Part shown: positions 5,067 to 39,891 of the stretch, piece after piece
Layout of the letters: every line of letters starts with the position of its first letter
Numbering within the stretch: the stretch's first letter is position 1
Source: Patescibacteria group bacterium
Lineage (GTDB): Bacteria; Patescibacteriota; Patescibacteriia; Patescibacteriales; WJLG01
Direction: 5' to 3'
Assembly: GCA_028716485.1 (NCBI GenBank)
Contig: JAQUPS010000004.1
Coordinates: 37,179-81,193, forward strand
DNA: 44,015 bases
The notes under the pieces: model-generated
The model's database searches: none
What the model saw: the letters and a program-made list of their open reading frames with translations, nothing else
Told to the model about the DNA's origin: nothing
Made by a program: the position numbers and the translations under genes

Positions 5067-5091
5067 GTCACTTTTTTAGAAAAAAGTGGCA
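5067..5091. repeat. Short hairpin (g)tcacttttttagaaaaaagtggc, recurs at 32852 and 37876
   Basis: Near-identical palindromes at three places in the window. Confidence 0.75.
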
Positions 5092-23751: not shown

Positions 23752-25253
23752 TGATAAAAAGGAGGATTGTTATTTTTATCGCCTGCTGGTTTTTTGCCGG
23801 AGGAATCATTTTTGCCTCATTTTTACCGAGAAATATGATGTTTTTCGGCCTTGATTATTTTGTCGCCGGGACAATATTTACGGTTTTGGCAGCTTGGTTT
23901 TGGAAGAAGAAAAACGCCCGCGCCATTTTGATTTGGGCGGCTTTTTTATTTTTCGGCATCTGGCGTTTTGCCGTCAGTTTGCCGGTTGATTCGCCCAATA
24001 TCATCTCGCATTATAACGGGCAAAAATTAGAATTAATCGGCCTGGTTTCCGCCGAACCGGCTATTAAAGGCAAGAGCCAGAAATTGGAAATAGAAAGCTT
24101 GGAATTAAACAGAAGTTTTTTAGTTGAAGGCAAAGTTTTAGTCGTCGTCGCCGCTTACCCGCAATATGATTTCGGCGATGTTTTGAAAATAACCTGCGCG
24201 CTTAAGCGGCCGGACAAATTGGATGATTTTGATTATGAAAAATATCTGGCTGGCAAGGGAATTTACTCGACTTGCGGTTTCCCCAAAATTTCAGTTTTGT
24301 CAGATGATAATTTATCGCCGCCGGTTTTGGCGGAGAAAAAAAGTTTAACCCTTTTCAACTGGCTGTGGGGAGGAATTTTTAAAGTCAGAGAAAGATTAAG
24401 TTCCACGATCGACAACGGTTTGACCGAACCGGAAGCCGGTCTGCTTAAAGCATTTTTATTGAACGATCCGACCGTGCCGGATGATTTGAATCTATCCTTC
24501 CGCCAGAGCGGCTTGTCGCACATCGTGGCGATTTCCGGCTCCCATATCAGCGAATTGATTGGCATCGCCTTTTTCTGCCTATTATTTTTGGGATTGAACC
24601 GGCGCCATGCTTTCTGGTTTTGCGTGCCGATAATTTTTTTCTACGTGGCCATGGTCGGCGCGCCGGCCTCGGCCTTGCGGGCGGGGATTATGGGTTTTTT
24701 GGTGTTGTTGGCTATGTATCTTGGCCGGTTAAGCCGGCTGGATTATATTTTGGCGATCGCCGGCGCCGCGATGCTTTTATTCAATCCGCTGCTCGTTATC
24801 GCCGACGCCGGTTTTCAATTATCTTTTTTGGCCGTGCTGGGGATGGTTTATCTTTTTCCGATTTTTGATAAATGGCTGTCCGTGTTTTATGAAGAAAAAG
24901 AAAATTCAGCGATAACCCACCCCGTCCTCGCGCGGCGCGAGTCCACCCCTCCTAAGAGGGGAATTAAAATTATTTGCCAGACAGTCGCCCTGACGCTGGC
25001 CGCGCAAGTTTTTACCGCGCCGATTTTAATTTTCGGCTTTCACCAGATTTCTCTGGTCGCCCCGCTCGCCAACCTGTTCGCGCTTTGGGCCGCGCCGTTC
25101 ATTATGATTACCGCTTTTATCGCCATGGGTTTATCGGCAGTAATTCCCGCCGGAGCGATTTATTTTTTCTTGCCCGCCGATATTTTGGTAAAATATTTAA
25201 TCGCCATTGCCGAAATTTCCGCCCAATTGCCGTTTGCCTATTGGAAATTTTAA
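23745..25253 (+). CDS. comEC: ComEC/Rec2-type competence membrane protein
   Basis: GLSHIVAISGSHISELIGIAF...; GAPASALRAGIMGFLVLLAMYLGR; DAGFQLSFLAVLGMVYLFP. Confidence 0.9.
   Translation: MSMIKRRIVIFIACWFFAGGIIFASFLPRNMMFFGLDYFVAGTIFTVLAAWFWKKKNARAILIWAAFLFFGIWRFAVSLPVDSPNIISHYNGQKLELIGLVSAEPAIKGKSQKLEIESLELNRSFLVEGKVLVVVAAYPQYDFGDVLKITCALKRPDKLDDFDYEKYLAGKGIYSTCGFPKISVLSDDNLSPPVLAEKKSLTLFNWLWGGIFKVRERLSSTIDNGLTEPEAGLLKAFLLNDPTVPDDLNLSFRQSGLSHIVAISGSHISELIGIAFFCLLFLGLNRRHAFWFCVPIIFFYVAMVGAPASALRAGIMGFLVLLAMYLGRLSRLDYILAIAGAAMLLFNPLLVIADAGFQLSFLAVLGMVYLFPIFDKWLSVFYEEKENSAITHPVLARRESTPPKRGIKIICQTVALTLAAQVFTAPILIFGFHQISLVAPLANLFALWAAPFIMITAFIAMGLSAVIPAGAIYFFLPADILVKYLIAIAEISAQLPFAYWKF
24916..24964. 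repeat. Element C copy (reverse) inside comEC
   Basis: acccaccccgtcctcgcgcggcgcgagtccacccctcctaagaggggaa encodes THPVLARRESTPPKRG. Confidence 0.85.
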
Positions 25254-29823: not shown

Positions 29824-29830
29824 ATAAATA

Positions 29831-30022
29831 TTCCCCTCCTTGGAGGGGTGGATCGCCGCCTCGGCGAGACGGGGTGGGTTTTCCCCTCCTTGGAGGGGTG
29901 GATCGCCGCCTCGGCGAGACGGGGTGGGTTTTCCCCTCCTTGGAGGGGTGGATCGCCGCCTCGGTGAGACGGGGTGGGTTTTCCCCTCCTTGGAGGGGTG
30001 GCCGAAGGCCGGGGTGGGTTTC
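29831..30022. repeat. Element C tandem array, four units of about 50 bp (last unit variant)
   Basis: ttcccctccttggaggggtggatcgccgcctcggcgagacggggtgggtt at 29831, 29881, 29931; variant at 29981. Confidence 0.97.
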
Positions 30023-30790: not shown

Positions 30791-30819
30791 ATTATTTCAT
30801 ACTTTACTAACTTTGTCAA
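30791..30819 (-). promoter_or_regulatory. Sigma70-like promoter of the 73-aa gene
   Basis: Minus strand TTGACA - 17 nt - AATAAT. Confidence 0.65.
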
Positions 30820-30824
30820 GTGCT

Positions 30825-32762
30825 ATGACCAAAAAAACGCTAAAAAAGGCTAAAAAGGTAGGTGCGGGAGGGGAATTGACCGATGTCCTGCTGGCCAGCA
30901 AAAAGATATATAAGCCGGCGGTGAAAATCACTAAGGAAGCAGTGGTGAAGGATTGGGAAAAGGCGAGAAGCGAAGCGGATAAAGATCCGCTAAAATATTG
31001 GGAAGAAGCGGCCAAGGATTTGGTTTGGTTTAAGCCCTGGACGCAAGTTTTGGATAAATCGCAAAAGCCTTTTTACAAATGGTTCATCGGCGGACAGACC
31101 AATTTGGCTTATAATGCGATTGACCGCTGGTTAAACACGCCTTGCGAAGATAAAATCGCGATAATGTCCGAAGACGAAACCGGTCGGGCGCGAAAATTCA
31201 CTTACAAAGAAGTTGCCCGCGAAGTTAATAAAATCGTCAATGGTTTGAAGGGTTTGGGCGTCAAGAAAGGCGACCGAATCGCGATCTATATGCCGAATAT
31301 TCCGGAAATCGCTTTCGCGATGCTGGCCTGCGCCAAGATCGGGGCGATGCACTCGGTGGTTTATGCAGGTTATTCCGCCACCGCCTTGCAAGACAGAATC
31401 AATGACGCGAGCGCGAAAATAGTTTTCACCGCCGACGGTTCCTGGCGCCGCGGCAAAGCGATAAATTTGAAAACGGTCGTGGATGAAGCGGTAAAAAATT
31501 GCCCGAGCGTGGAAAAAGTAATTGTTGCCAAAAATAATAATCAGGAAGTGCCGTTCAATCCGGCCAAAGATATTTGGCTCGCCGATCTGGTCAAAGACCA
31601 GTCGACCGAATCCCAATGCGCGGCAATGGATGCCGAAGACCCGGCATTTGTTTTATACACTTCTGGCACGACGAGCAAACCGAAAGGCGTGGTGCATGTC
31701 CACGGCGGCTATCCGGTCGGAGTTTTGCGCACGATGAAATGGATTTGGGATATCAAGGATAATGATATTTTTTGGTGCACGGCCGATCCGGGCTGGATCA
31801 CTGGACACTCTTACATTATCTATGGGCCGCTGATGGCCGGTGTGACCACTATAATGTATGAAGGCACACCGGATTTTCCCGAGCAGGATCATATCTGGTC
31901 GATGGTGGAAAAATATAAAGTGACAATTCTTTATACTGCGCCGACTTTGATCCGCGCGATGATGAGCTTGGGCGATGATTTGCCGGACAAGCACGAGATG
32001 CCGAGTTTGCGTCTGCTCGGTTCGGTGGGCGAGCCGATTAATCCCAAAGCTTGGAAATGGTATTATGAGCATATCGGCAAAAGCAAGAGGCCGGTGCTGG
32101 ATACCTGGTGGCAGACGGAAACCGGCTGTAATATGATTTCGCCTCTGCCGGTTACGCCTTTGAAAGCAGGTTCAGCAACTAAACCGTTCCCGGGAATTCA
32201 GGCTGATATTTTAGATATGAAAGGTAAAAAAGTTCCGGCAGGCAGTGGCGGATACTTAGTCATCAAATCGCCCTGGCCGTCGATGATCCGCACGGTTTTC
32301 AACGCGCCGGAAAGATATTTGAAAACTTATTGGCATGAAATCAAAGGCGTATTTTTCACCGGCGATATCGGATTTAAAGACAAAGACGGTTATTTTTTCA
32401 TCCAGGGACGCACTGACGATATGCTGAAAATAGCCGGCCATCGCTTGGGCACGGCCGAAGTGGAATCGGCTTTTGTTTCTCATCCGGCCGTGGCCGAATG
32501 CGGCGTCATCGGCGTGCCTGACGAAATCAAGGGCGAAGTCATCAAAGCGTTCTGCATCTTGAAAAAAGGTTTTGTCGGCGATGATAAATTGAAAGACGAA
32601 TTGAAATTGCACGTGCGCCACACTATCGGCCCGGTCGCCGTTATGAAAGACGTCGCCTTCGTCGATTCTTTGCCTAAGACGCGCTCGGGAAAAATTATGC
32701 GCCGCATCCTTAAAGCCAAAGAACTTGGCTTGCCTCTCGGCGACACCAGCGCTTTGATTTAA
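30825..32762 (+). CDS. acs: Acetyl-CoA synthetase, AMP-forming
   Basis: LYTSGTTSKPKGVVHVHGGYPVG, DTWWQTETGCNMISPLP, KTRSGKIMRRILKAKELG. Confidence 0.93.
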   Translation: MTKKTLKKAKKVGAGGELTDVLLASKKIYKPAVKITKEAVVKDWEKARSEADKDPLKYWEEAAKDLVWFKPWTQVLDKSQKPFYKWFIGGQTNLAYNAIDRWLNTPCEDKIAIMSEDETGRARKFTYKEVAREVNKIVNGLKGLGVKKGDRIAIYMPNIPEIAFAMLACAKIGAMHSVVYAGYSATALQDRINDASAKIVFTADGSWRRGKAINLKTVVDEAVKNCPSVEKVIVAKNNNQEVPFNPAKDIWLADLVKDQSTESQCAAMDAEDPAFVLYTSGTTSKPKGVVHVHGGYPVGVLRTMKWIWDIKDNDIFWCTADPGWITGHSYIIYGPLMAGVTTIMYEGTPDFPEQDHIWSMVEKYKVTILYTAPTLIRAMMSLGDDLPDKHEMPSLRLLGSVGEPINPKAWKWYYEHIGKSKRPVLDTWWQTETGCNMISPLPVTPLKAGSATKPFPGIQADILDMKGKKVPAGSGGYLVIKSPWPSMIRTVFNAPERYLKTYWHEIKGVFFTGDIGFKDKDGYFFIQGRTDDMLKIAGHRLGTAEVESAFVSHPAVAECGVIGVPDEIKGEVIKAFCILKKGFVGDDKLKDELKLHVRHTIGPVAVMKDVAFVDSLPKTRSGKIMRRILKAKELGLPLGDTSALI

Positions 32763-32766
32763 AAAA

Positions 32767-32815
32767 TTCCCCTCTTGGGAGGGGTGGCTCGCGTCGCGCG
32801 AGACGGGGTGGGTTT
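32767..32815. repeat. Element C copy (forward)
   Basis: ttcccctcttgggaggggtggctcgcgtcgcgcgagacggggtgggtt. Confidence 0.88.
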
Positions 32816-32851: not shown

Positions 32852-32874
32852 GCCACTTTTTTAGAAAAAGTGGC
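32852..32874. repeat. Short hairpin gccacttttttagaaaaagtggc
   Basis: Palindrome, same family as 5067 and 37876. Confidence 0.82.
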
Positions 32875-32883
32875 GCAAAAATC

Positions 32884-33024
32884 GCGAGCAGGAAAAATTT
32901 TGGGACGCTCCGCTAAGAAGCCTAGCAAAATTGCTATACTTGCCCGCGAGGCGCGGGCTTCGGACAACGCAATTTTGCACGGCTTCTACGCTGTGCGTCT
33001 TAGCCAAAATTTTTCAATGCTCGC
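32884..33024 (+). repeat. Nested-hairpin element E, copy 1
   Basis: gcgagcaggaaaaattttgggacgc...agaagcctagcaaaattgctatacttgcccgcgaggcgcgggcttcggacaacgcaattttgcacggcttct...ccaaaatttttcaatgctcgc; successive arms pair. Confidence 0.92.
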
Positions 33025-33072: not shown

Positions 33073-35772
33073 ATGGAGACCGCCTATCCTTTAAGCGAGA
33101 AAAAGTTAGACAAGATTTTCAATCCCGGGACGATTGCCGTCATCGGAGCTTCGGATCGGGAAGGCGGAGTTGGCAATGCCTTAATGAAAAATCTGATTGG
33201 CAATAATTATCACGGCATTGTTTATCCGGTCAATCCCAACCGCGAAAGCGTGGCCGGGATAAAAGCCTATCCGCGGATCGGCGATATTCCCGATAAGATC
33301 GATTTGGCGATTATCGCTACTGCCGCGCCAAGCGTTCCGGCTATCGCCGAAGAATGCGGTAAAGCTGGCGCGGCCGGTTTGATGATTATTTCTTCCGGTT
33401 TTGACGAAATCGGCGCCAAAGGCAAGAAGATGAGCGAAGAAATTTCCGCCACTGCCCGCGAATACGACATGCGCGTTATCGGCCCGAATTGCCTGGGTTT
33501 TATCCGCCCGTCAATAAATCTGAACGCCAGCTTTGCCAACAAGATGGCTTTGCCCGGCCACATCGCTTTTATTTCCCAGTCCGGCGCGCTATGCACCGCC
33601 ATTCTTGATTGGTCGCTGAAGAACAACGTCGGTTTCTCGCACTTTGTTTCCATCGGCGAAACGATTGATATTTCTTATCATGATTTGATCGATTATTTCG
33701 GCGATGATCCGGACACGGACAATATTCTGATTTATATGGAATCGCTCAAAGAAGCGCGGAAATTCATGAGCGCAGCGCGAGCCTTTTCGCGCGCCAAGCC
33801 GATCGTGGTTTTGAAAGTTGGGCGCACCGAAGCCGGGGCGCAGGCGGCTAAATCGCATACCGGCGCCTTGACCGGCAATGACGCGGTTTACGACGCGGCG
33901 TTTGAGCGAGCCGGTATCATCCGCGTCGACGGAGCGCTGGATCTTTTTCATGTGGCCAAGATTTTGGCCATGCAAAAAAGGCCGGCGGATAATCGAGTCG
34001 CGGTCATTACCAATGCCGGCGGGCCGGGCGTCATCGCCGCTGACCGGTTGGCCATGAAGGGCGGGCGCTTGGCCAAATTATCACGTTCAACTGTTTCTGA
34101 ATTAAAAAAGATTTTGCCGTCCGCCGCTTCCGCGGCCAATCCGGTTGATGTTCTGGGCGATGCCGATGCGCATCGTTATCGGCAGGCGGTAGAATTATGT
34201 TTGGCTGATCCGAATGTCGATGCCGCTTTGGTAATCCTGACTCCGCAGGAAATGACCAGTCCGACCGATGTGGCCAGACAGATTGTTTCCATTAAGAATA
34301 AAACCGGAAAAACCATGCTCGCTTCCTGGATGGGCGGCGATGATGTGGCCGAAGGGCGGTCGATTTTGGAAAAAGGCAATATTCCGATCTACCGCACACC
34401 CGAAGAAGCGGTGGATATTTTTATGTATGTGGACAGCTATCGCCGTCGTTTGGAATTTTTGAAAGAAACGCCGGGCTCAATGCCGCACGCTTTCAAGCCT
34501 AAGACGGAAAAAAATCGCGCGCTGGTGGAAAAAGTAATCGCCGACGGCCGGACAGTGATGACTGAAGCCGAGGCCAAGGAAATGATTGCCAATTATGGCA
34601 TACCGGTGGCGAAAAACGGCGTGGCCAATTCCGCGGCGGAGGCGGGCGCGATTGCCGAAAAAATCGGCTTCCCGGTAGTGATGAAAATTTTGTCGCCGGA
34701 TATTTTGCACAAGACTGATATCGGCGGCGTAAAATTGAATATCAATTCCCGCGTCGAGGCGGAACAGGCTTATCAGGGAATTATAGTCGGCGCCAAGAAA
34801 GTTCCTAAGGCGAAAATCGACGGCGTGTTCATTGAAGCGATGACTAAAAAACGCTACGAGCTTTTGATCGGCTGCAAGAAAGACGAAGTTTTCGGGCCGG
34901 CGATCGTTTTTGGCATGGGCGGCGTGGCTGTGGAAGTCTTCCGCGACACAGCCGTGGGTTTGCCGCCGCTGAATATGTCGCTCGCTTTGAAAATGATCCA
35001 GGAAACCAAAGTTTATAAATTACTCGAAGGCTATCGCGGCATGCCGGGCGTCGATATCGAAGCGATTCAATTCTTGCTTTATAAATTCGCTTACTTAGTC
35101 AGCGATTTTCCAGAAATAAAAGAATTGGATATCAATCCTTTCGCGGTTGATGAAAACGGCGGCGTGGTTTTGGACGCCAAAGTAATTCTGGACGAGAAAG
35201 TCTTGGGCGTGAAGCGCGCGCCGTATTCCCATCTGGTCATTTCGCCCTATCCGAAAGAATTCGAGACAACGATGGGGGTCAAATCTTCTTCCGGAAAAAT
35301 TGCTAAAGTTTTTGTCCGGCCGCTTCGCCCGGAAGACGAGGAATTAGTCGCGGGGTTTTTCCACCATCTGTCGCCGGCTTCGCAGAAGGATCGCTACTTG
35401 CAGGTAATCAAGAAAATCGACCATGAATTTCTATTGCGCTTTACCCAAAATGACTATGACCGCGAAATCGGCTTGGAAGCGGAGATTTTGATAGGCAAAA
35501 AACCGCAGATGATCGGCGCCGTAAGATTGATCATCGATCCTTATGGAGAATCGGCCAAGTTGTCAGTAGTGATAATCGATAGCTGGCAAAGCAAAGGTTT
35601 AGGCGGCGAATTGACCGATCACATGCTGGAAATCGCTCGCGGCCGCGGCGTGAAAAAAATCTGGATAGAATTCTTCCCGACCAATAAAAGAATCATAAAA
35701 ATCTTGGAGAAACGCAATTTTACTATCAAAGCACGAGGAAAAATAATGATGGGGGAGTTGGAACTGGAATGA
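33073..35772 (+). CDS. ADP-forming acyl-CoA synthetase (alpha+beta) fused to GNAT acetyltransferase (Pat-like architecture)
   Basis: FNPGTIAVIGASDREGGVGNALMKNL; SHTGALTGNDAVYDAAFERAG; ATP-grasp GFPVVMKILSPDILHKTDIGGVKLN; C-terminal VRPLRPEDEELV...GLGGELTDHMLEIARGRG. Confidence 0.92.
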   Translation: METAYPLSEKKLDKIFNPGTIAVIGASDREGGVGNALMKNLIGNNYHGIVYPVNPNRESVAGIKAYPRIGDIPDKIDLAIIATAAPSVPAIAEECGKAGAAGLMIISSGFDEIGAKGKKMSEEISATAREYDMRVIGPNCLGFIRPSINLNASFANKMALPGHIAFISQSGALCTAILDWSLKNNVGFSHFVSIGETIDISYHDLIDYFGDDPDTDNILIYMESLKEARKFMSAARAFSRAKPIVVLKVGRTEAGAQAAKSHTGALTGNDAVYDAAFERAGIIRVDGALDLFHVAKILAMQKRPADNRVAVITNAGGPGVIAADRLAMKGGRLAKLSRSTVSELKKILPSAASAANPVDVLGDADAHRYRQAVELCLADPNVDAALVILTPQEMTSPTDVARQIVSIKNKTGKTMLASWMGGDDVAEGRSILEKGNIPIYRTPEEAVDIFMYVDSYRRRLEFLKETPGSMPHAFKPKTEKNRALVEKVIADGRTVMTEAEAKEMIANYGIPVAKNGVANSAAEAGAIAEKIGFPVVMKILSPDILHKTDIGGVKLNINSRVEAEQAYQGIIVGAKKVPKAKIDGVFIEAMTKKRYELLIGCKKDEVFGPAIVFGMGGVAVEVFRDTAVGLPPLNMSLALKMIQETKVYKLLEGYRGMPGVDIEAIQFLLYKFAYLVSDFPEIKELDINPFAVDENGGVVLDAKVILDEKVLGVKRAPYSHLVISPYPKEFETTMGVKSSSGKIAKVFVRPLRPEDEELVAGFFHHLSPASQKDRYLQVIKKIDHEFLLRFTQNDYDREIGLEAEILIGKKPQMIGAVRLIIDPYGESAKLSVVIIDSWQSKGLGGELTDHMLEIARGRGVKKIWIEFFPTNKRIIKILEKRNFTIKARGKIMMGELELE

Positions 35773-35911: not shown

Positions 35912-37561
35912 ATGATAAAGAGATTGTTCAACAAAGAAATCAATAGCATCACCGTGGCGGCGATTTTGGTCGCGCTGTCTTCGCTGGTCAGCCGCTTGCT
36001 CGGCGTTTTGCGCGACCGGATTTTGGCCGGACAATTCGGCGCCGGGGCGACGCTTGATGCTTATTACGCCGCTTTCCGCGTGCCGGATTTGATTTTTAAT
36101 CTGTTGGTTTTGGGCGCGCTGTCGGCCGGCTTGATTCCCGTTTTCACTTATTTGATCAAAGATTTTAAAGGTACGATTACCAATTTATTCGGTTTGGAAA
36201 ATACCGAGGCTTGGCGGCTGATCAATAATACTTTGAATCTGATGCTGATTTCACTGGGGCTGCTTTCTCTGCTGGGAATAATTTTTGCCGAACCGCTGAT
36301 CAAGACGATCATCGCCCCGGGATTCTCGCCGGAATTGCAGGCGCGCACGGCCGCTTTGAGCCGGATAATGTTTTTGTCGCCGATACTTCTGGCCGTGTCC
36401 AGTATTTTCAGCGGCGTTTTGCAATCATTCAAAAGATTTTTTGTTTATTCCCTGGCGCCGATAATGTATAACATCGGCATTATCATCGGCGCGTTATTTT
36501 TAGTGCCGCTTTGGGGAATCTACGGTTTGGCATGGGGCGTGGTGGCCGGAGCGCTGTTGCATATGCTCATCCAGATGCCGACCGTTTTTGCTTTGGGCTA
36601 CAAATACGCGCCGATTTTGGATTTGGCTGACAAAAATTTGCGGAAAATTATCACAATGATGGTGCCGCGCACTTTAAGCTTGGCGGTTTCACAATTGAAT
36701 TTAGTGGTGATTACGGCAATCGCTTCGGGCTTGACTGTCGGCTCGCTCACGGTTTTCAATCTGGCGAATAACCTGCAATATTTTCCTATCGGAATCTTCG
36801 GCATTTCTTTCGCCATCGCCGCTTTTCCCGCTTTGTCGGCCGCGGCCAATGATAATAAAAAAATGGTGCGGGATTTTTCCTGGACCTTCCGGCAGATTTT
36901 GTTTTTCATCGTGCCTTCGACGATTCTGCTTCTGGTTTTGCGGGCGCAAATCGTCCGCGTCATTTTGGGTTCCGGTCAATTCAGCTGGGATGCCACGACC
37001 TTGACTTTCAATACTTTGGGATATTTTTCCATCAGCCTTTTTGCCCAAGCCACCATTCCCTTGTTGATCAGGGTTTTTTACGCCCGCGAGGATTCGAAAA
37101 CGCCATTTATCATCGGTTTGATTTCCGTGGCGGCTAACGTTTTTTTGGCTTTTTATTTTTCCGCCCGTCTGGGCGTCGGCGGTCTGGCCTTGTCTTTTTC
37201 CCTGGCCAATATTATCAATTTCGTTCTCTTGTGGCTTTTGCTCCACTTTACGCTGGGCGATCTGAATGAAGGGAAAATTTTTATTTCCGTCATTAAGTTT
37301 TCTTTGGCCGGATTGGTCTGCGGTTTTGTCGCCCAGGAAATGAAAGGGATTATCTGGCCGCTGATTGATATGACCAAATTTTGGGGAGTTTTGGTTCAGG
37401 GCGCGGTCGCGGGATTTTCCGGCTTGATCGCTTATGCCATCCTTTGCGCTCTGCTAAGAAGCGAAGAAATGGCCAGCTTCATCGCCTCGGCCAAAAGCCG
37501 CCTATTGCGAATTATGGCGAAAAATCCGCCGACATCGATCGAGTCAATCGAAGAGCCGTAA
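35912..37561 (+). CDS. murJ: Lipid II flippase MurJ
   Basis: LVSRLLGVLRDRILAGQFGAGATLDAYYAAFRVPDLIFNLLVLGALSAGLIPVFTYL. Confidence 0.95.
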   Translation: MIKRLFNKEINSITVAAILVALSSLVSRLLGVLRDRILAGQFGAGATLDAYYAAFRVPDLIFNLLVLGALSAGLIPVFTYLIKDFKGTITNLFGLENTEAWRLINNTLNLMLISLGLLSLLGIIFAEPLIKTIIAPGFSPELQARTAALSRIMFLSPILLAVSSIFSGVLQSFKRFFVYSLAPIMYNIGIIIGALFLVPLWGIYGLAWGVVAGALLHMLIQMPTVFALGYKYAPILDLADKNLRKIITMMVPRTLSLAVSQLNLVVITAIASGLTVGSLTVFNLANNLQYFPIGIFGISFAIAAFPALSAAANDNKKMVRDFSWTFRQILFFIVPSTILLLVLRAQIVRVILGSGQFSWDATTLTFNTLGYFSISLFAQATIPLLIRVFYAREDSKTPFIIGLISVAANVFLAFYFSARLGVGGLALSFSLANIINFVLLWLLLHFTLGDLNEGKIFISVIKFSLAGLVCGFVAQEMKGIIWPLIDMTKFWGVLVQGAVAGFSGLIAYAILCALLRSEEMASFIASAKSRLLRIMAKNPPTSIESIEEP

Positions 37562-37655: not shown

Positions 37656-37818
37656 GCGAGCATTGAAAAATTTTGGAATAAGCACGAGCGTAGAAGCCGT
37701 GCAAAATCCCGTTGTCCGAAGCCCCGCTTCATTATTATATTTTTATTAATAAAAGCGGGGCAAGTATAGGGATTTTGCTAGGCTTCATAGCGAGTGCGCC
37801 AAAATTTTTCCTGTGAGC
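37656..37818 (-). repeat. Nested-hairpin element E, copy 2 (inverted relative to copy 1)
   Basis: Reverse complement aligns to 32884-33024 with conserved tagcaaaatNNNtatacttgcc and ggcttcggacaacgNNattttgcacggcttctacgct. Confidence 0.92.
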
Positions 37819-37821
37819 AAG

Positions 37822-37872
37822 TCCCCTCTAAAAAGAGGGGTGGCAGGCCGCCTCGGCCTGACGGGGTGTGTT
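37822..37872. repeat. Element C copy
   Basis: tcccctctaaaaagaggggtggcaggccgcctcggcctgacggggtgtgtt. Confidence 0.85.
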
Positions 37873-37875
37873 GTT

Positions 37876-37900
37876 TTCGCCACTTTTTTCGAAAAAAGTG
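37876..37900. repeat. Short hairpin gccacttttttcgaaaaaagtggc
   Basis: Perfect palindrome, third copy in window. Confidence 0.85.
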
Positions 37901-38028
37901 GCAAAAGAAGTTGGTTGAACAATTTTAGCAAAAAAACATTCTTCATTTGACCAAACCCTTGATAAAAGATACTATATTCATAGTAAAGAGGTTGATTTTT
38001 CACCCATTTTTATTGTTTAGAGTGTATC

Positions 38029-39891
38029 ATGAAGAACATCCGCAATTTTTGCATTATCGCCCATATCGACCACGGCAAATCCACTTTTTCTGACCGGCTT
38101 TTAGAGCTGACCGGCACCATCGAAAAACGGAAAATGCGCGAGCAGTTTCTGGATAAATTGGATTTGGAGCGCGAACGCGGCATCACCATCAAATTAAAAC
38201 CTGTCACCATGCATTGGGAAGGGTATATTTTGAATTTGATAGACACGCCCGGACACGTGGATTTTTCTTATGAAGTTTCCCGTTCGCTCGCGGCAGTGGA
38301 AGGAGCGATTTTATTGATTGATGCCACGCAAGGAATCCAGGCGCAGACGCTGGCTAATTTATATTTGGCGCTGAAAGAAGATTTAACCGTCATCCCGGTC
38401 ATCAATAAGATCGATTTGCCGGCGGCTGATGTGCCGAAAGTGAAGCGGGAAATAATCAATTTGATCGGCTGCAAAGATGAAGATATTTTTTTAGCGTCGG
38501 GAAAAACCGGCGAGGGCGTGGAAAAAGTTCTGCGCGAAGTGATCGCCAAAGTTCCGTCACCAGATAAATTTGTTAGATGCTCTGATTTGCCGCGAGGAAA
38601 ATCCGGCGCTGACCCACCCCGTCAGGCCGACGCGGCCTGCCACCCCTCCCGAGAGGGGAATCCGGCGCGCGCTTTGATTTTTGATTCTAATTATGACGAA
38701 TATAAAGGAGTGGTCGCGCACGTGCGGGTGATGGACGGCGCCTTTAAGAAGGGCGACAAGATAAAATTATACAATACGAAAATTGTCAGCGAGGCTTTGG
38801 ACATCGGTATTTTTAATCCCGAATATCAGCCGACCGGAGAATTAAGCACCGGCGAGGTCGGCTATATAGTCACTAGTTTTAAAAATGTTTCCGAGTGCGC
38901 CGTCGGAGATACGGTTACGACCGTGGCCGATTTTGATAAGATTGAGCCGTTGAAAGGCTATGAACAGGTTAAGCCGATGGTTTTTGCCGGAATTTTTCCC
39001 CGCGAAGGCGACGATTTCCAGACTTTGCGCGAAGCGATGGATCGCCTGAAATTGAATGACGCTTCTTTCTCTTATGAGCCGGAACATTCCGAGGCGCTGG
39101 GATTCGGTTTTCGTTGCGGATTTCTGGGGCTGCTGCATCTGGAAATTTTTCAGGAAAGATTAAGCCGCGAGTTCAATCTGGATCTGATCGTTACCGTGCC
39201 GAGCGTGGCTTATAAAGTTTTCAAAAGAAACGGCGAAGAAATAATCATCCGTACGCCGCAAAAATTGCCCGGGCCGACCGAGGTTGCTAAAATCGAAGAG
39301 CCGTGGGTAACTTTGGATGTGATCGTACCCAAGGATTATATCGGCAAGGTGATGGAATTGGCCGTTGATAAAAAAGGGATTTATAAAAACACCGAATACC
39401 TGGACGAATCGTGCGTCATTCTGCATTATGACTTGCCGATGGCTTCGATCCTGACGGATTTTTATGATAAGATAAAAAGCGCCAGCTCCGGCTTCGCCTC
39501 GATAAATTATGAATTTTTGGATTATCGGCCGGCCAAAGTCGTCCGCCTGGATATTCTGGTGGCCGAAGAGCCGATCGAGGCTTTGTCCACTATCGTTTAT
39601 GAAGATGACGCTTTCCGGCAAGGCCGGGCGGTGGTGGAAATTTTGAAAGACACTTTGCCGCGGCAGATGTTCGTGGTGAAATTGCAGGCTTCGGTCCAGG
39701 GGAAAATAATTGCCGCCGAAAGATTATCGGCTTTGCGCAAAGACGTGACGGCCAAATTATATGGCGGAGATGTTTCTAGAAAACGCAAGCTTTTGGAAAA
39801 ACAGAAAAAAGGCAAGAAGAAAATGATGGCCGCCGGACGAGGCTCGGTTGAGATACCGCCAGAGACTTTCGTGAAGATACTTAAGAAATAA
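38029..39891 (+). CDS. lepA: Elongation factor 4 (LepA)
   Basis: NIRNFCIIAHIDHGKSTFSDRLLELTG; LIDTPGHVDFSYEVSRSLAAVEGAILLIDATQGIQAQTLAN. Confidence 0.96.
   Translation: MKNIRNFCIIAHIDHGKSTFSDRLLELTGTIEKRKMREQFLDKLDLERERGITIKLKPVTMHWEGYILNLIDTPGHVDFSYEVSRSLAAVEGAILLIDATQGIQAQTLANLYLALKEDLTVIPVINKIDLPAADVPKVKREIINLIGCKDEDIFLASGKTGEGVEKVLREVIAKVPSPDKFVRCSDLPRGKSGADPPRQADAACHPSREGNPARALIFDSNYDEYKGVVAHVRVMDGAFKKGDKIKLYNTKIVSEALDIGIFNPEYQPTGELSTGEVGYIVTSFKNVSECAVGDTVTTVADFDKIEPLKGYEQVKPMVFAGIFPREGDDFQTLREAMDRLKLNDASFSYEPEHSEALGFGFRCGFLGLLHLEIFQERLSREFNLDLIVTVPSVAYKVFKRNGEEIIIRTPQKLPGPTEVAKIEEPWVTLDVIVPKDYIGKVMELAVDKKGIYKNTEYLDESCVILHYDLPMASILTDFYDKIKSASSGFASINYEFLDYRPAKVVRLDILVAEEPIEALSTIVYEDDAFRQGRAVVEILKDTLPRQMFVVKLQASVQGKIIAAERLSALRKDVTAKLYGGDVSRKRKLLEKQKKGKKKMMAAGRGSVEIPPETFVKILKK
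38610..38660. repeat. Element C copy (reverse) inside lepA
   Basis: tgacccaccccgtcaggccgacgcggcctgccacccctcccgagaggggaa encodes DPPRQADAACHPSREG. Confidence 0.92.

Follow-up and report, generated by a model that had tools for sequence, protein, structure and literature searches.

Integron attC sites are imperfect palindromes whose terminal structure varies, while unpaired positions in them are conserved. REPINs are doublets of REP sequences that form hairpins and are associated with RAYTs (PMC3116915, PMC2817692). MITEs and the ERIC, BOX, RUP and SPRITE repeats are small, palindromic and intergenic, and BOX, RUP and SPRITE elements have been reported to insert into one another (PMC10969869). 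IS1397, IS621 and ISKpn1 are autonomous insertion sequences with a transposase, which insert into REP palindromes (PMC1525189).

The element described here was noticed in a 44,015-nucleotide stretch of a Patescibacteria genome (the window), and it resembles REPINs as a non-autonomous hairpin that is short and intergenic, keeps its ends while changing in a compensatory way between them, and shows inverted arrangements and many lineage-specific sites. Unlike REPINs, it has no GTAG or GTGG head, occurs in tens rather than hundreds of copies, and has no link to a Y1 transposase. Further differences are its length of about 140-230 bp, the nesting of its helices, a hairpin that stands apart (hairpin B), and the conservation of a loop close to the tip. 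It shares small size, palindromic form, and intergenic position with MITEs and with ERIC, BOX, RUP, and SPRITE; however, its stems covary across the whole class around a constant apical loop, and neither a parent transposon nor a target duplication was identified for it. As with IS1397, IS621 and ISKpn1, there are copies in palindromic DNA, located at hairpin apices, but the element is gene-less and is itself a hairpin. Like attC, it is an imperfect palindrome in which the tip varies and unpaired positions are kept, but it comes without IntI, R and L boxes, or arrays. Its nearest counterparts are REPINs and MITEs, although the tests applied do not place it among RAYT-linked REPs. Overall, it is probably a small non-autonomous, REPIN/MITE-like mobile DNA hairpin of Patescibacteria.

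Both copies in the window are intergenic, copy 1 between two synthetase-like genes and copy 2 between murJ and lepA (Table 1). The four flanking genes are all on the plus strand, and the two copies are in opposite orientations. The preliminary description had drawn nested helices in both copies (e.g. GACGC..GCGTC in copy 1 and GCAC..GTGC in copy 2), with stems changed on both sides between the copies and with a TA/AC bulge and a TATACTT/TTCGGACAAC internal loop common to both; every one of these helices and loops was found at its place. Pairing extends outwards past them (GCGAGCA..TGCTCGC and AAAAATTTTGG..CCAAAATTTTT), and hairpin B is located 9 nt to the left of the core of copy 1. When folded as single-stranded DNA, copy 1 reaches -50 kcal/mol, as compared with -23.7 +/- 3.0 kcal/mol in dinucleotide shuffles (z -8.7; 0 of 200 shuffles as good), and the z-score is -10.1 when the adjacent hairpin B is included. 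Copy 2 reaches -37.6 kcal/mol (z -6.5), with no shuffle as good.

Table 1. Features of the window that belong to or flank the two copies of the element.
Feature	Position in window	Strand	Remarks
Core nested hairpin, copy 1	32884..33024	+	G000:C4:70062-70202; matched by model R2, which was not trained on copy 1
Core nested hairpin, copy 2	37656..37818	-	G000:C4:74831-74996 by model search; model R2 match
Hairpin B of copy 1, GCCACTTTTTTAGAAAAAGTGGC	32852..32874	+	Followed by GCAAAAATC, then the core
Variable tip hairpin of copy 1, GCCCGCGAGGCGCGGGC	32942..32958	+	3-nt loop
Hairpin B of copy 2	37879..37902	-	Repeat A between hairpin B and core
Repeat A (CCCCTCT..AGAGGGGTGGC..GACGGGGTGTG)	37823..37870	.	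Separates hairpin B of copy 2 from the core
Repeat A	32769..32814	.	Immediately left of copy 1
Acetyl-CoA synthetase-like gene (AMP-binding)	30813..32762	+	Flanks copy 1
ADP-forming acyl-CoA synthetase-like gene (ATP-grasp, Succ_CoA_lig)	33073..35772	+	Flanks copy 1
Lipid II flippase MurJ gene	35912..37561	+	Flanks copy 2
Elongation factor 4 (LepA) gene	38029..39891	+	Flanks copy 2

The repeat A within copy 2 is a nested insertion. Repeat A is also present to the left of many element copies in a congener, G001; it is a neighbour of the element and probably a separate repeat. In the window, repeat A (CCCCTCC..GGAGGGGTGG..GACGGGGTGGGT) also occurs at 24920, 29830-29990, 30428, and 38617 besides the two places in Table 1, with three tandem units at 29.8-30.0 kb, and G001 holds many copies of it. 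Hairpin B can likewise be found standing alone without a core, at 5067-5090 of the window (GTCACTTTTTTAGAAAAAAGTGGC) and at one site in G001 (L199).

The two copies known to the preliminary description have many relatives. The window's own assembly (G000; 1.15 Mb, 28 contigs) has the element at 11 distinct places according to a DNA search, and the same 11 were returned by a covariance model; about 25 places were found in G001, the one congener compared, some of them broken at contig ends. The repeat is 140-230 bp long and is situated in non-coding gaps between genes. The best G000 match to copy 1 by DNA search is 89% identical, and therefore no G000 copy is demonstrably recent. Aligned copies of G000 and G001 have a constant order, which starts with hairpin B (GCCACTTTTTT..AAAAAAGTGGC), the spacer GCAAAAAATC, and GC[G/T]CGC, continues with an A/T-rich stem and a swappable stem (GACGC/GCGTC, ATCAC/GTGAT or GCAC/GTGC), and ends with CGCTAnGAA[A/G]CC, the TA/AC bulge, GCAAAATnGC, the internal loop, and the tip. 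The tips are unrelated in sequence and can be as small as a 3-nt loop or as long as about 95 nt, so that the difference in terminal-loop size first seen between the two window copies extends to the family. Among the G001 copies, L036 and L081 are without the inner modules, and in L030, L034, L035, and L037 other hairpins replace them. One G001 copy (L017, G001:C37:885-1053) has a hybrid core, in which the left outer stem TTTTGGGACGC and the right outer stem GTGATTTAACGGAAA are of different stem types and are not fully paired, a sign of copy-to-copy exchange.

Outside the genus, the element was searched for with two covariance models. Model R1, built from 20 G000/G001 copies, was run on 111 genomes of the order and found the element in at least 15. 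Model R2, for which 29 matches, mostly order-level ones, were used and the window copies excluded, found it in at least 16 genomes from 8 families outside the order; both counts are lower bounds, as few candidates were scored per genome and the filters were strict. Model R2, which is independent of the window copies, matched copy 1 at E 5.7e-21 and copy 2 at E 2.2e-17, the E-values of both models being rough. Of three matches in a wider contig scan, only L084, from Patescibacteria and identical in sequence to L088, shows the element; L083 and L085 have no such fold around the match and were taken as chance. A scan of IMG/VR with two exact patterns gave no match. Rfam gave no match at the element at either gathering or relaxed thresholds, and no matching description was found for Patescibacteria or the Candidate Phyla Radiation in the open full-text literature, a scope outside which most subscription papers and all preprints fall. 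The element family is real and class-wide in Patescibacteria, and apparently new to description.

In the order-level alignment A3, 93.6% of the cells are paired, as compared with 75.5% in shuffles, a percentage that is raised by fitting A3 to the structure of R1. Twenty-nine of the 38 pairs are altered on both sides. These double-sided changes amount to 193 cells, against 52 in shuffles and 18-49 with the partner slid, the two serving as controls, and RNAalifold alone predicts nearly identical helices from A3. The covariation proposed earlier from two copies is strong across the order. The apical internal loop is AACTC/TCAAACA in most relatives and TATACTT/TTCGGACAAC in the genus of G000. The AACTC/TCAAACA loop in its strict form is present in 30 of 40 distant copies and in 1% of shuffled cores, a count which is partly raised by selection with R2; however, the order-level copies were found by R1, whose training copies mostly have a different apex. 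Hairpin B with a CAAAA spacer is found in 32 of the 40. The ends are conserved (GC[G/T]CGC..AAAAATTT / AAATTTTT..ATGCTCGC), and the alignments show imperfect terminal inverted repeats, with GCKMGCANNGAAAAATTT at both ends. Overall, constancy is confined to terminal or unpaired parts, namely hairpin B, the ends, and the apical loop, and the intervening stems keep little beyond complementarity. A kink-turn-like apical loop was also considered, and pairing gave no support for it.

RNA helices normally accept G-U much better than A-C, and an RNA selected for pairing is expected to show an excess of G-U on its own strand. At the consensus pairs of A3, G-T occupies 28 cells and A-C 24 (14 and 20 in the inner helices); in alignment A1, the counts are 19 and 9 (9 and 8 in the inner helices). 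Wobble pairs being no commoner than A-C mismatches, pairing at the DNA level is favoured over pairing at the RNA level. Free folding gave 44 G-U on the plus strand and 82 on the minus strand, with one G-T and 14 A-C among 1x1 mismatches; folding of the minus strand was first suspected from this asymmetry, an idea that was abandoned, as the asymmetry is gone when counted on consensus pairs. The G-T/A-C symmetry fits pairing that is kept in DNA, via either hairpin recognition or template-switch correction.

Template switching during replication, a documented process that perfects imperfect palindromes (PMC7202029), could produce such covariation by mutation, with no selection on the fold. It would account for the symmetric G-T and A-C rates, and for tip and flank stems that diverge fast yet stay well paired. 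However, it leaves unexplained why hairpin B, the ends, and the unpaired apical loop are conserved class-wide, and how the element dispersed to new sites, so that as a full explanation it is a real possibility but a rather unlikely one. Template switching may explain how the stems stay paired, and in that role it is compatible with a mobile DNA element.

The preliminary description had left a choice between a non-coding RNA and a hairpin recognised by a transposase acting in trans. An RNA role, as a structured multi-copy transcript, a cis-regulatory RNA or an element at the 3' end of mRNAs, would agree with conserved loops and strongly covarying stems throughout the class, and one gene pair carries the element in three genomes. 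Outside the genus, moreover, the gene on the left is directed at the element in 20 of 23 order-level loci, as compared with about half of the G000/G001 loci, by a longest-ORF rule that is heuristic. This bias is the clearest hint of a link with gene ends, and it provides most of the support that an RNA role still has. Nevertheless, an RNA appears unlikely: Rfam has no family for it even when the threshold is relaxed, G-U is not commoner than A-C at paired positions, copies in G000 and G001 are randomly oriented relative to genes, with the window copies opposed, and the flanking genes change between copies. Of the two options, mobile DNA is favoured because of the lineage-specific sites, the filled and empty sites, the nesting, the inverted pairs, the random orientation in the genus, and the missing G-U excess; no transposase could be linked to the element.

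The copies occupy different intergenic sites in different lineages. Outside repeats, the flanks of G000 copies have no sequence in common with those of the G001 copies compared. Five G000 sites could be found in G001 (both window sites, L004, L006, and L010), and all of them are without the core, a hairpin B remnant being present at the L010 site (the solitary L199 mentioned above). At L052 (G001:C8), several extra genes (about 2.7 kb) lie between the two genes that flank copy 1. A gene pair of family f4 has the element between its genes in G008, G010, and G012, whereas G007, G006, and G013 have no core there. The cleanest comparison is that of the empty G013, in which GAATAG directly precedes CGGTGATTC, with the filled G012, in which about 215 bp stand between GAGTAG and CGGTGATTC; the prefix, hairpin B, the core, and a 32-nt suffix come or go as a single block. 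In this one clean pair (L115/L114), no target duplication is obvious, or at most a TA. A single filled and empty pair fits either insertion or deletion, but the comparison of all sites together speaks for gain, and it suggests that the element moves by insertion. Some copies persist, since three genomes from two genera have the element at one and the same locus.

Existing hairpins appear to be preferred as sites. The f4 copies without hairpin B are placed between the arms of locus-specific inverted repeats. When the left flank was scored against the reverse-complemented right flank, 11 copies without hairpin B, including L225 from another family, scored 13-25, as compared with a mean of 6.7 and a maximum of 17 for mismatched flanks; G000 copies, which have hairpin B, scored 4-8, as in their cross pairs. 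Several of the arms resemble gene-end hairpins, being preceded by A-runs and followed by T-runs (L139 and L140). At the spot equivalent to the L137 site, a short hairpin, AAAAAAGCCCGATCGGGCTTAATT, is present in the relative G010; in relatives at 70-85% identity, the places of the inverted repeats hold either different hairpins or no hairpin. In G008 and G010 (L110 and L111), the core is at the apex of a palindrome from another family, P, and L136 is a core within a core. G027 has inverted pairs of two different cores in three places (L087, L099, and L106), each about 450 bp long, with a short palindromic linker between the cores and hairpin B at both outer ends. Together, these arrangements support a preference of the element for existing hairpins, although insertion itself could also make the arms. 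Family P (TTTTCRCTTAGACRAAATTTG..CGTATGCGCTCAAAA; L143, L145, L146, L184, L185, L186, and L187) likewise has copies that are enclosed by inverted repeats of about 14-24 bp particular to each locus.

No mobilising enzyme was found, and no autonomous version with the same ends was seen among the compared copies. The element could be a REP or REPIN moved by a RAYT, i.e. a Y1 tyrosine transposase, as conserved ends, compensatory changes, and inverted pairs are found in REPINs (PMC3116915), and of the 15 genomes in the order that bear copies, 11 have Y1 genes, as compared with 46 of 96 others. However, the search gave no Y1 match in the copy-rich G001 or in the copy-bearing G007, G010, G027, and G068, and no GTAG or GTGG tag is present at the base of the palindrome in alignments A1 and A3. 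When 41 Y1 loci were scanned, a clear element turned up close to a single locus (G004:C28) and to one side of it, which is about chance level, and none of the loci is flanked by the element on both sides. G000 itself carries a single IS200-type transposase gene (L012, G000:C18:18652-19008), which has its own ends, with CCACCGGCGAAGCCGGT hairpins on both sides; derivation of the element from IS200/IS605 was rejected because these end hairpins differ from those of the element. Mobilisation by IS200 or RAYT enzymes was likewise rejected as a general explanation, given the copy-bearing genomes without Y1 and the 1 in 41 Y1 loci near an element, and a RAYT-driven REPIN is quite improbable here. Hardly any weight can be given to an integron attC-like site, used by IntI as a folded single strand: a tip that varies and unpaired positions that are kept recall attC, but no integron integrase scored above the TIGR02249 curated cut-off in any of the 111 genomes (weaker matches occur in all control genomes too), the ends (GC[G/T]CGC..GCTCGC) are without RYYYAAC/GTTRRRY boxes, and cassette arrays are absent, on which grounds it was rejected.

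One possible scheme for a mobile DNA hairpin can be described as follows. The DNA of the element would fold once it is single-stranded or extruded, and a hypothetical trans-acting recombinase or nuclease would recognise the ends and the apical loop and move the element. New copies would tend to land in or beside existing hairpins, such as gene-end hairpins and other palindromic repeats, which would produce a Russian-doll nesting. More tentatively, and on balance doubtfully, the element may be a gene-less, class-wide one that spreads by recognising DNA hairpins and entering their loops, its conserved apical loop serving as the code, in which case its mobiliser would be of a type for which no action on hairpins is known so far, and palindromes would nest at gene ends throughout Patescibacteria.

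For the discovery of RNAs, these results are a caution, as strong covariation without a preference for G-U need not mean RNA. The conserved loop, together with stems that are free to change, defines a family that can be searched for, and the filled and empty sites are a starting point for finding what moves the element. The genomes of Patescibacteria are small and regarded as streamlined, but many copies of this repeat have been kept in genomes scattered across the class.
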